A stretch of 64,000 nt of DNA, from assembly GCA_019637585.1 (NCBI GenBank), contig JAHBVL010000005.1, positions 62,001 through 126,000 on the forward strand, given 5' to 3'. A program made the position numbers and the translations under genes. Numbering within the stretch: the stretch's first letter is position 1; every line of letters starts with the position of its first letter. This stretch comes from Thermomicrobiales bacterium. GTDB taxonomy: Bacteria > Chloroflexota > Chloroflexia > Thermomicrobiales > UBA6265. Below the pieces are notes generated by a model. The model was not told where the DNA came from, ran no database searches, and saw only the letters and a program-made list of their open reading frames with translations. Below, piece after piece: positions 21,770 to 50,210 of this stretch.

Positions 21770-22279
21770 ATGAACGAGAAAGAGTTTGAACTGACTGAAG
21801 GGCTTGAGGTGGATACAGACCGCCGAACCCTGCTGAAGTGGCTCCTCGGCGGCACCACGGCCGTTGTCGCTGGAGTCACACTGAGTGACAGCATCCTCGC
21901 TCAGGGCGATGATGATGACGACGACGATGATGACGATCCAAATCCGCCAGTCGGCGATGATGACGACGACGACGATACCGATCCGCCTGCAGATGATGAC
22001 GACGATGATGACGACGACGATACCGACCCACCTGCAGATGATGACGACGATGACGATGATGATGACGACGACGACGGCGGCCATCCTGGCAAGAAGCCGT
22101 GGAAGCATCACAAGCATGGCAAGACCTCTGGCGGCGCTGCCGTAGAGTCGCTGCCGAACACCGGCACCGGTTCGACCTCCAGCTCGAATGGCATGCTCGG
22201 CGTCGCCACTGTTGGCGCAGCTGCGGCCTACTTCGCTGGCAAGTACCTGCGCCAGACCGCGTCGGAGTCCGCCGAGTAA
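21770..22279 (+). CDS. Polyaspartate-rich exported protein with LPNTG cell-wall-anchor tail
   Basis: A 169-residue protein of striking composition. A Tat-like signal (DRRTLLKWLLGGTTAVVAG, about residues 17-35) ends near ILAQG. Then come four runs of 10, 7, 10 and 13 consecutive aspartates separated by PNPPVG, TDPPA and TDPPA. A basic patch GGHPGKKPWKHHKHGK follows. The end is a sortase-type sorting signal: SLPNTG, a glycine/serine linker, a hydrophobic segment MLGVATVGAAAAYFAG and the basic tail KYLRQ. GGAGG at 21761-21765 fixes the start. Expected location is outside the membrane, wall-linked or membrane-held if no sortase acts. Calcium binding or a surface polyanion role is plausible. It is divergent from the CphA-like gene, which suggests it could be that enzyme's substrate. 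Confidence 0.88.
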   Translation: MNEKEFELTEGLEVDTDRRTLLKWLLGGTTAVVAGVTLSDSILAQGDDDDDDDDDDPNPPVGDDDDDDDTDPPADDDDDDDDDDTDPPADDDDDDDDDDDDDGGHPGKKPWKHHKHGKTSGGAAVESLPNTGTGSTSSSNGMLGVATVGAAAAYFAGKYLRQTASESAE

Positions 22280-47424: not shown

Positions 47425-48350
47425 CCGCCGCTGAAGCCACCACCGTGCTCCCGGCTCCGGGCCGGCGTGCCCACTCCTGGATGCCCGAGCTGGCGCTGCT
47501 GACCACCATCAGCCTCTGGTCGTCGACCTTTGTCGTGACCAAAGACCAGCTCGACCGCTTTCATCCGATGGCGTTCATCTTCGTCCGCTTCCTGCTGATG
47601 ATGACGATGGCCATCGTCATCATGGTCATCCGGGAGCGGGGCATTCCCCTGCCGGAAAAACGGCATCTCTGGCAGTTCGTAGCGACCGGCATCACCGGTT
47701 ACACGATCTACCAGCTTGGTTTTGTGCTGAGTCTCGACCGCACGTCGGTCTTCGCCAGCTCGCTGCTCATCGCCACAAGCCCCCTCTTCACCATGGTCTT
47801 TCTCTCGCTGATCGGAGAGAAATCGCCCTGGCTGAGCTGGGTGGGACTGGGCATCGCCGTGGTAGGCATCGCCCTCTTTCTGGTCGACAAGCGGGGCGGA
47901 GAACGGTCGCTGTCCGGCGACCTGCTGGCGATCATGGCCGCCGCGTCGTTCGCCGCCTATGGCATCATCAACCGTCCATTGGCACGAGCCTATCCGCCCG
48001 CAACCTACACCGCCTGGGCGATAACCTTCGGCACGATCCCCCTGTTGATCGCCGGACTCCCCCAGGCCATGGAGCAGAACTGGACCGCCATCCCTGCTTC
48101 CAGCTGGCTGGCCGTCCTCTACATGGTCATCTTCCCGGTCTATGTGGCCTATATGCTCTGGAATTTCGGCATCAAGCATCGCGGCGCCGCTCTGGCATCG
48201 AGCTTTGGACTGCTGGTGCCCATTCTGAGCGGACTGCTCTCGGTCGCATTTTTCGATGAACGCTTTGGCGCGATAAAGCTAGCCGGCGCAGCGCTCGCAC
48301 TGGCCGGCTTGCTCATCATTCGGGTTGGGGCGATTCGCGCCTCGACCTGA
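47421..48350 (+). CDS. DMT superfamily (EamA) transporter
   Basis: A 309-residue, ten-span protein with two EamA repeats: LTTISLWSSTFVVTKDQL in the first span and, in the second half, DLLAIMAAASFAAYGIINRP. It starts within the stop of the PhnP-like gene, so translation is coupled. Such proteins export amino acids, nucleosides or drugs; the substrate is unknown. It converges on the cysteine-rich protein gene with 12 bases between the stops. Confidence 0.9.
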   Translation: MTAAEATTVLPAPGRRAHSWMPELALLTTISLWSSTFVVTKDQLDRFHPMAFIFVRFLLMMTMAIVIMVIRERGIPLPEKRHLWQFVATGITGYTIYQLGFVLSLDRTSVFASSLLIATSPLFTMVFLSLIGEKSPWLSWVGLGIAVVGIALFLVDKRGGERSLSGDLLAIMAAASFAAYGIINRPLARAYPPATYTAWAITFGTIPLLIAGLPQAMEQNWTAIPASSWLAVLYMVIFPVYVAYMLWNFGIKHRGAALASSFGLLVPILSGLLSVAFFDERFGAIKLAGAALALAGLLIIRVGAIRAST

Positions 48351-48362
48351 CGGTTCTTCTGT

Positions 48363-49220
48363 CTATTGCGCCTCGTGCTGCTTTTTCTCTCGCACGATCG
48401 CCGCTCCCAGAACTGCCGCTCCGCCGAGCACCGCAGCGCCGGCTGCCAGGGAGGAAGAACCGGTCGTCGAGCCCGATCCGGTGTTGGGAAGACTCGCCAC
48501 CTTTTCGCCGTTCACGTTCCCAGGCGGTTTTGTGCCACCATCCGAACAGCAGCTTACCGAGCAACTTCCACTCTCACAGCAACAACCACGATCGCAATCC
48601 TTGTCGCTCGAACAACCCTCATCCGACTCGCATGGCCCGTCCTGGCATACGCCATCGCAGCATTCGGTACCCGAAGAGCAGCCCTCAACCTGACAGACGT
48701 TGTTGACGCAAAGGTGCTCCTCACACGGCCCGGCCGGCCCATTGCCGGCGCAATCGCTATGCCCGCAGCAATTGCCGCTGACGACCGTTCCATTACAGCA
48801 AACGGAGCCGGATGGCGCCGGGCAGTCGAGCGTGATGCCGCAATCTGCCTGCACTACACCGCATACACCGGGGAAATCCTCACACGTCTGGGGCTGGCAG
48901 CATTCCGTTCCGGAACAGGTGCTCCCTTCCGCACAGCAGGTCGTGCCGCCGCAGCATTGCTCTCCTGCATCGCATTTCTCCCCAAGACCGCAGCAGGTTC
49001 CCTCGCCAAGCACAAAGGAACAGTAAAACCCGTTGCAGCAATAGACTGGTCCGAGTCCGGCGCAATCGCCGTGGTCATCACATGGCCAACCGCCAGCTTC
49101 CGCCGACTGCTTGACAGCGGCAACGCCGGCGCTCCCAGCGATGATGCCTTTGAGCAGCGAGCGTCTCGACGTGCCTGCGGCCAGCGATTTGGTCAGCCTG
49201 TCGAATCTGTGTCCGTCCAT
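48363..49220 (-). CDS. Cysteine-rich exported protein with LPNTG tail
   Basis: A 285-residue protein. The twin-arginine signal SRRSLLKGIIAGSAGVAA is at about residues 18-35. Between about 45 and 235 I count 40 cysteines, mostly as CC pairs and CxxxxC units, separated by Gly, Ser, Asp and Thr; this looks like a disulfide-knotted array. The tail has SLPNTGSGSTTGSSS, a hydrophobic segment and the basic REKKQ end, a sorting signal like that of the polyaspartate protein. It should be surface-located. GGAG precedes the ATG. Function unknown; metal binding or a structural spacer are possible. Confidence 0.85.
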   Translation of the reverse strand: MDGHRFDRLTKSLAAGTSRRSLLKGIIAGSAGVAAVKQSAEAGGWPCDDHGDCAGLGPVYCCNGFYCSFVLGEGTCCGLGEKCDAGEQCCGGTTCCAEGSTCSGTECCQPQTCEDFPGVCGVVQADCGITLDCPAPSGSVCCNGTVVSGNCCGHSDCAGNGPAGPCEEHLCVNNVCQVEGCSSGTECCDGVCQDGPCESDEGCSSDKDCDRGCCCESGSCSVSCCSDGGTKPPGNVNGEKVASLPNTGSGSTTGSSSLAAGAAVLGGAAVLGAAIVREKKQHEAQ

Positions 49221-49248
49221 ATGCGTCTCCGTTCAGCGCCCCTTGCCC

Positions 49249-49275
49249 AAAAAAAGCACCGGCTCGTGCCGGAGC
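49249..49275 (-). terminator. Rho-independent terminator of the beta-galactosidase operon
   Basis: Read on the minus strand, GCTCCGGC and GCCGGTGC form a stem with one mismatch around an ACGA loop and are followed directly by seven T residues. It lies about 120 bases after the last gene of the minus-strand operon and before the cysteine-rich protein gene. Confidence 0.82.
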
Positions 49276-49394
49276 GCAATCCACAGTGCCTGCGTATGTG
49301 CAATGAGCAGCCTACCGGGTGTCGCCACAAACGTCAAAATCGCGCCTTAGAAACCTGTTGGTGGCCCAAAATCAAAAGGGGTGCGTGTCATCCT

Positions 49395-50210
49395 TCAAAC
49401 TGGCGTGGCCATACCGGGGAAGAGTGGAGCCCAGTCGCGCTGCCGAACGACCGCTTCTCCCACCTCCAAAGCCGCTTCGATCGTTCGACGCTTCTCCGGT
49501 CCGCAGACCCAACGGTCGAACAGAGCGGGGGAGCACAGCATGACCACTGCCGGTGGTGAGAACCTGTCGGACAGCTGCCGCCAAACCCGGTCGAGCGCCG
49601 GCAAAGAGATCTCGCCGGGTCGCAACTCGGCGGGAAAGGCATCGAACGTGGTCACTTTGCGGATCATGCCGTCGCTGATCTCGGCGATCAGACCGATCAC
49701 CAGACCGTCGTCACCGATCACCGCCAGCGCCACGCTGGCCGGTTCCTGGATCTGAAGGACGATCGCCTCGATTCCTTCATAGGTCCAGCCATTCCAGCTT
49801 CGCTCTTTGGGCGGGACGGCGACATATCCCTCGCCATCTCCCCAAACGAGTTCTGCGACACGCCGGTAGTACTGGTCGAGCTGCAGCGTACGCCCCGTGG
49901 CGTCCTGCGCCGTCGCCGCGACCGACTGGAGATGCGCGCGATCGATCACATGGACGCGGTCCCACTCACCCCGTGCATGGAGCTCGTTCGCCAACGCACT
50001 GGGGTCGGAAACCGACTCGATGCCAAGATCGCCACGCCGGCCGGACTGGCTATCGACGATGTTGAGCACGTCGCCCCGCTCGTGCAGGACGAACAATCCA
50101 TGCTCATCCGGCGAACCTGCCCGGATGTACTGGCCGGGCGGAAAATACTGGCCGATGGCCCGCCAGGTGCGAGGATCGAGATCGACCAGCTCCCAGTTCG
50201 GATCGATCAT
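49395..50210 (-). CDS. Hypothetical protein of the beta-galactosidase operon
   Basis: A 271-residue soluble protein I cannot place in a family. It opens with WELVDLDPRTWRAIGQYFPPG, has a central alpha/beta region (RVHVIDRAHLQSVAATAQDA) and a later part with paired strands, VALAVIGDDGLVIGLIAEI, then VTTFDAFPAEL. No signal peptide or membrane span. It overlaps the GH35 gene by four bases, so its product is made with the enzyme and probably acts on the same substrate or senses it. Confidence 0.8.
   Translation of the reverse strand: MIDPNWELVDLDPRTWRAIGQYFPPGQYIRAGSPDEHGLFVLHERGDVLNIVDSQSGRRGDLGIESVSDPSALANELHARGEWDRVHVIDRAHLQSVAATAQDATGRTLQLDQYYRRVAELVWGDGEGYVAVPPKERSWNGWTYEGIEAIVLQIQEPASVALAVIGDDGLVIGLIAEISDGMIRKVTTFDAFPAELRPGEISLPALDRVWRQLSDRFSPPAVVMLCSPALFDRWVCGPEKRRTIEAALEVGEAVVRQRDWAPLFPGMATPV

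Follow-up and report, generated by a model that had tools for sequence, protein, structure and literature searches.

YSIRK-type signal peptides are Sec signals with a conserved motif, found on Gram-positive wall-anchored proteins that have unlike cores. Natural Tat-dependent sortase substrates ending in LPXTG or LAETG motifs have been described in Actinobacteria (Gallego-Parrilla et al. 2024, PMC10924467), and the accessible part of that paper states that, to its authors' knowledge, none had been described earlier. Those substrates have cores such as HtaA and SCO1860, and the strings "chloroflex-" and "disulf-" have no occurrences in the paper's main text. According to the accessible part of PMC9995818, Tat exports folded proteins and rejects structurally incorrect ones, and disulfide-bonded proteins produced in E. 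coli are nearly always passed unfolded through Sec and oxidised outside. As to Chloroflexi, the available portion of PMC1586193 treats the single sortase-like protein of Chloroflexus as unproven, and that of PMC7203096 regards sortases as characteristic of Actinobacteria and Endobacteria and does not include Chloroflexi. The literature consulted on Chloroflexi sortases and LPXTG proteins and on cysteine-rich secreted proteins, with subscription papers largely outside it, contains no description of a family like the one reported here.

Within a 64,000-nucleotide stretch of Thermomicrobiales DNA (the window), an earlier note had described a protein with 40 cysteines, a Tat-type signal and an LPNTG tail, and all three are read in the 285-residue frame at 48363-49220 on the minus strand, here called P0001 (Table 1). 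As far as the accessible text of PMC10924467 describes them, the actinobacterial substrates resemble P0001 in joining an N-terminal Tat signal to a C-terminal sorting motif and transmembrane tail, whereas P0001 comes from Chloroflexota, has a 192-residue core that is 21% cysteine, and carries an n-region that recurs over unlike cores. We consider it likely that P0001 is a wall-anchored, disulfide-knotted surface protein, exported by Tat and linked by a class-F-like sortase. Tat-dependent sortase substrates are known, and the cysteine-packed form from Chloroflexota is new; the family would extend such natural substrates from the Actinobacteria covered in that text to another phylum.

Table 1. 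Features of P0001 and its surroundings, with the related polyaspartate protein, in positions of the window.
Feature	Position	Strand	Basis
P0001 gene, 285 aa, 40 Cys	48363..49220	(-)	open ATG to stop; header and tail paralogues
Signal peptide, Tat-type, residues 1-42 (MDGHRFDRLTKSLAAGTSRRSLLKG...SAEA)	49095..49220	(-)	header profile; TatC in genome
Cysteine core, residues 47-225, all 40 Cys	48546..49082	(-)	Cys count
CDRGCCCESGSCSVSCC unit, core end	48546..48596	(-)	pattern in 3/75 header proteins, 3/3 tailed
LPNTG sorting motif, residues 244-248 (tail SLPNTG)	48477..48491	(-)	sequence; Pfam
Hydrophobic span GAAVLGGAAVLGAAIV, Ala/Gly-rich, residues 261-276	48393..48440	(-)	sequence
Basic C-terminus REKKQHEAQ, residues 277-285	48366..48392	(-)	sequence
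GGAG, Shine-Dalgarno-like, 6 nt 5' of the P0001 ATG	49227..49230	(-)	read from sequence
Hairpin, terminator-like, then T7, end ~30 nt 5' of the P0001 ATG	49259..49272	(-)	terminator scan
Polyaspartate protein, same header class and LPNTG tail, 0 Cys	21770..22279	(+)	profile searches

The twin arginines of P0001 are residues 19-20 (SRRSLLKG), followed by a moderately hydrophobic stretch containing one lysine and then by SAEA, with cleavage predicted after A42. This arrangement fits the Tat consensus (S-R-R-x-x-L-K, a moderate h-region and an AxA site), which the counts match. P0001 falls below the cut-offs of Pfam TAT_signal (PF10518; 12.8 of 22.7 bits) and NCBIfam TAT_signal_seq (TIGR01409; 8.2 of 16.7 bits), models so short (21 and 29 positions) that the miss lowers the Tat claim only slightly. 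At the other end, LPXTG, a hydrophobic span (mean KD 2.12 across 16 residues) and a basic C-terminus are all present; Pfam Gram_pos_anchor scores 21 bits, one bit over its cut-off of 20, and NCBIfam LPXTG_anchor (TIGR01167) stays below its own (7.5 of 15.9 bits). Among the 581 frames of the window that run from stop to stop over 60 aa or more, two close with the combination of LPxTG, hydrophobic span and basic end, against a mean of 0.07 and a maximum of 1 in 100 two-base-block shuffles of the window. The second such frame is likely the polyaspartate protein.

That P0001 and the polyaspartate protein have a tail in common, and that unlike cores share one anchoring scheme, had both been suggested from the window alone. 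A tail profile built from six tails matches both proteins among eight in the genome at E<=1e-8, six of the eight matched proteins having fed both this profile and the header profile described below. The cysteine counts of the eight are 0, 10, 12, 40, 50, 74, 77 and 144, the T and G of LPxTG are kept in every tail, and all eight share the signal peptide header MDxxRFDxLTRxLxxGxSRRxxLKG, so the idea of a family reaches further than the tail, to a common N-terminal signal and a larger set of header proteins. Three further proteins of the genome have a C-terminal LPxTG outside this group, two of them (L030, L033) with more classical spans and tail-profile E values of 0.19 and 0.51, and one (L070:9892-10548) with a degenerate header. 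Among the 61 genomes of the order sample, own included, the tail was found in 11 at E<=0.001. Genomes other than our own gave 18 tail matches; the header was shown on eight of them and was not found in the same frame for the other ten, some of these frames being long and the flank possibly short of the start.

In four of the eight tail proteins (L014:11011-12573, L014:8693-10672, L071:5535-7175 and window 21770-22279) the 70 residues ahead of the LPNTG tail contain polyaspartate runs, accompanied by His/Lys/Pro-rich stretches. These runs are perhaps wall-spanning linkers. Since they occur in four of the eight tail proteins, the polyaspartate protein is seen as the extreme of a shared linker type.

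Searched with a profile of the header, the genome gave 34 matches at E<=2e-6, and 13 of them are grouped into one cluster at C1:33-59 kb and another at C23:389-413 kb. Thirty of these proteins were read: 25 contain at least 10% cysteine (median 15.8%), the largest has 1,756 residues and 280 cysteines, and eight carry the tail, none being seen on the other 22, four of which were read incompletely. The loci around the clusters (L066 and L067 at C1:30-62 kb, L068 and L069 at C23:386-419 kb) hold large tail-less header proteins, among them the one of 1,756 residues and 280 cysteines, and two of these that were scanned have no Pfam domain over cut-off.

Thirty headers of this genome and 45 of relatives, all distinct, were compared: every one of the 75 has the twin arginine, and in 70 its spacing from the start is constant. 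Relative to it, F occupies position -13 in 69 headers and D position -12 in 70; S is found at -1 in 64, K/R is found at +5 in 64, and K/R lies near the cleavage region in 69. These counts partly reflect selection, as the headers were retrieved by profile. Judged from the sequences, a fixed n-region across unlike cores exceeds what a Tat signal needs. The likeness to YSIRK peptides lies in a signal-peptide motif common to wall-anchored proteins of unlike cores; the difference is that MDxxRFDxLTRxL precedes a twin arginine, YSIRK peptides being Sec signals, and that most carriers read (22/30) have no visible tail.

At E<=1e-6 the header occurs in 25 of the 61 genomes of the order sample: 23 of 32 in the same family, two of five in a second family, and none of 24 in the rest. 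Across the phylum, at E<=1e-8 and with up to 28 candidates scored per genome, two of 251 genomes matched (our own and the distant G083) in a scan that evidently took in no matching close relatives. The header therefore appears, from these searches, nearly limited to one family of the order.

The best partners of P0001 in the genome are a 77-cysteine protein matching residues 181-282 (40% identity, E 1.4e-12) and a 12-cysteine protein matching residues 1-105 (39% identity). At E<=1e-5 P0001 matched in seven of 60 relatives, five of these matches running from the header into the core (two of the five with an internal stop) and two covering the header alone; the longest covers residues 1-225 (36% identity, E 6e-7) with no tail match. 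None of the 60 relatives yielded an orthologue that has both core and tail, and the named-genome contig scan gave no orthologue at all. Searched alone with phmmer, the core matched nothing else under E 0.1 among the family and relative loci examined, which argues for a fast-changing core between a conserved header and tail.

The core has no Pfam or NCBIfam domain, and phmmer of P0001 against PDB sequences gave no match at E<=1. The structure prediction that had been proposed for the core was run with AlphaFold on the single sequence and gave a poor model (mean pLDDT 52.2) whose best blocks, residues 81-130, reach 72-82; Foldseek returned eight matches to it at E<=10 and none at E<=0.001. On these results we claim no fold. 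Cysteine doublets were likewise set aside as a sign of order in the core (11 against 8.1 in shuffles, p=0.15, not significant). The dense cysteine spacing of the P0001 family is like that of the Dickkopf_N and conotoxin-like Pfam models, but of the ten proteins scanned, chosen from the family or for their tail, two gave weak hits to such models, below cut-off, and the P0001 core gave none.

Cysteine parity was examined after removal of the fixed 46-residue header. Of the family proteins that are complete and contain four or more cysteines, 62 in number, 54 had an even count (p 8.5e-10 against one half). The excess persisted after clustering (39/45) and was seen both with tails (13/15) and without (41/47). 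Removing the header matters where a cysteine falls in the first 46 residues, which is true of two of the eight odd chains (L100, L102); the exceptions include the 77-cysteine anchored paralogue. Control frames (at least 250 aa, at least four cysteines, below 5% cysteine), some of which may be spurious, were even in 48 of 78 cases, itself over half (p=0.03), and the family exceeded them with p=0.0006, or p=0.002 after clustering. The disulfide-type core proposed in the earlier note thus gains support, and pairing is favoured over metal thiolates because so many family proteins have even counts.

The earlier note had made its reading of the tail depend on a sortase, and the genome (3.94 Mb, 33 contigs, 96.6% complete) encodes five PF04203 domains over cut-off, in all of which the catalytic His, Cys and Arg are invariant. 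Class F (NCBIfam NF033748) is the best subfamily for all five, but their scores of 77.9-87.1 bits fall short of its 166-bit cut-off and make them class-F-like only. The genome also encodes one TatC and four penicillin-binding transpeptidase domains, the latter an indirect sign that peptidoglycan is made. Such a sortase was found at E<=1e-8 in 58 of the 61 genomes, own included, and an own sortase has 65% identity to one from Thermomicrobiales MAG ACE_NR_CHLO10 and 41% to one from an uncultured Chloroflexi MAG. A 924-aa sortase gene is found about 1 kb upstream of the 77-cysteine paralogue, itself a protein with both header and tail; the two genes share a strand and are separated by a single ORF of opposite orientation.

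Two of the five sortases, of 924 and 1,749 aa (L013:6694-9468 (+) and L019:3597-8846 (+)), differ from class F sortases in being fused to SpaA-type prealbumin repeats (Pfam) and YPNTG, which precede the sortase domain; no clear membrane span follows YPNTG in either. YPNTG or YPDTG also stands before the sortase domain in three (L126, L129, L130) of 26 sortase ORFs from relatives (29 loci), and in L129 and L130, over the stretch read, the motif follows repeats that are similar by eye; next come a hydrophobic span and a second signal of twin-arginine type, ahead of the sortase domain. The domain order gives the impression of a sorting-signal protein joined to its sortase, and the fused motif favours PxTG-type signals as what this sortase group naturally acts on. 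Small sortases (L016:7995-8642 (-), L018:7795-8499 (-) and many of L112-L139) are class-F-like and often carry roughly G(E/D)(M/V/L)P(T/S)xG together with RPGP directly after the signal peptide, a pattern that looks like a sorting motif in degenerate form. Self-cleavage at this motif was considered and dropped, as the T is not kept (TTG/STG/SFG/SYG/TSG/SSG/SAG).

In the working model, the MDxxRFD...SRRxxLKG signal would lead P0001 to the Tat translocase and be cut after residue 42, as the Tat consensus and the TatC gene suggest, and the 40 cysteines would form about 20 disulfides, consistent with the parity result. The Ala-rich span and basic end would hold P0001 in the membrane, and a class-F-like sortase would cut LPNTG between T and G and link the protein to a peptidoglycan precursor; we infer both the cleavage and the wall linkage. 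A small, rigid core would then be displayed, a protease-resistant coat or binding element being the role we favour, and tail-less relatives of up to 1,756 aa may be released. Among the points counting against this model are the expectation that Tat refuses misfolded substrates and the lack of any VKOR match in the genome.

Export through Sec, with the twin arginine a look-alike and disulfides formed outside as usual, would make oxidation unremarkable and would agree with the scores below the Pfam and NCBIfam Tat cut-offs. We find it unlikely, given the S-R-R-x-x-(L/I/V)-(K/R) consensus, the twin arginine present in every header compared and the K/R near the cleavage region in most of them. It also seems quite improbable that the cysteine core stores metal as thiolates, taken up in the reducing cytoplasm before Tat exports the folded holoprotein. 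Metal thiolates need no parity, yet even counts prevail among the complete members, and the P0001 core has three histidines per 192 residues; on the other side, Tat classically carries cofactor proteins, as the accessible part of PMC10924467 also indicates, the missing VKOR match would be accommodated, some family members have His- and Asp-rich stretches, and zinc-binding proteins occur at walls elsewhere (PMC12445094, in its available portion).

The tail could act as a membrane anchor only, without sortase linkage: its span is Ala/Gly-rich yet hydrophobic, with the mean KD given above, and Tat tail-anchored proteins exist, according to the accessible text of PMC10924467. The odds nonetheless seem to be against this reading by a good distance, since T and G are kept in all own tails of the group, five sortases are encoded, and there are sortases with a PxTG-type motif ahead of the sortase domain. 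Finally, the P0001 frame might be spurious and the real gene the longer overlapping antisense ORF at 48366-49559 (+). Codon usage gives P0001 a weak coding signal: GC at codon positions 1/2/3 is 0.59/0.61/0.66, and codon fit is 0.036, compared with 0.325 for the adjoining transporter gene and the lowest among 14 family genes compared, in the other 13 of which codon bias is weak as well. All antisense frames nevertheless fit worse than P0001 (the best at -0.01), as do those of 13 of the 14 family genes relative to their own sense frames, the exception being the polyaspartate gene. The header and tail of P0001 are intact, with paralogues at the protein level, and 48366-49559 (+) overlaps the terminal part of the next ORF on the minus strand, so that we regard an antisense gene as extremely improbable.

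Beyond the reading of P0001 as a wall-anchored, disulfide-knotted protein, we put forward only tentatively, and with more doubt than belief, that in one lineage of Chloroflexota the fixed-length signal MDxxRFDxLTRxLxxGxSRR is a dedicated one that routes about 30 disulfide-paired proteins through Tat, and that a sortase-anchored subset including P0001 builds a disulfide-stapled coat. If so, a single chain would acquire as many as about 140 disulfides in the cytoplasm ahead of export, or Tat would carry large reduced chains. A natural family whose members, all with Tat signals, bear as many as 280 apparently paired cysteines would be a direct test case for the folding demands of Tat against disulfides, and would also test disulfide formation before export.

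The eight ORFs adjoining P0001 have a mean cysteine content of 0.7%, and no sigma-70-type promoter was found within 48300-49500. An attenuator or riboswitch ahead of P0001 was considered and rejected: Rfam gave no match, leader folding had a z of -0.14 against shuffles, and no kindred T-run was seen in the family, a search of the 150 nt 5' of 17 other family genes (three starts a few bases off) finding no run of at least five T. The terminator scan found three sites where 1.1 were expected, weak support for the hairpin 5' of P0001, which is probably the end of the upstream gene.
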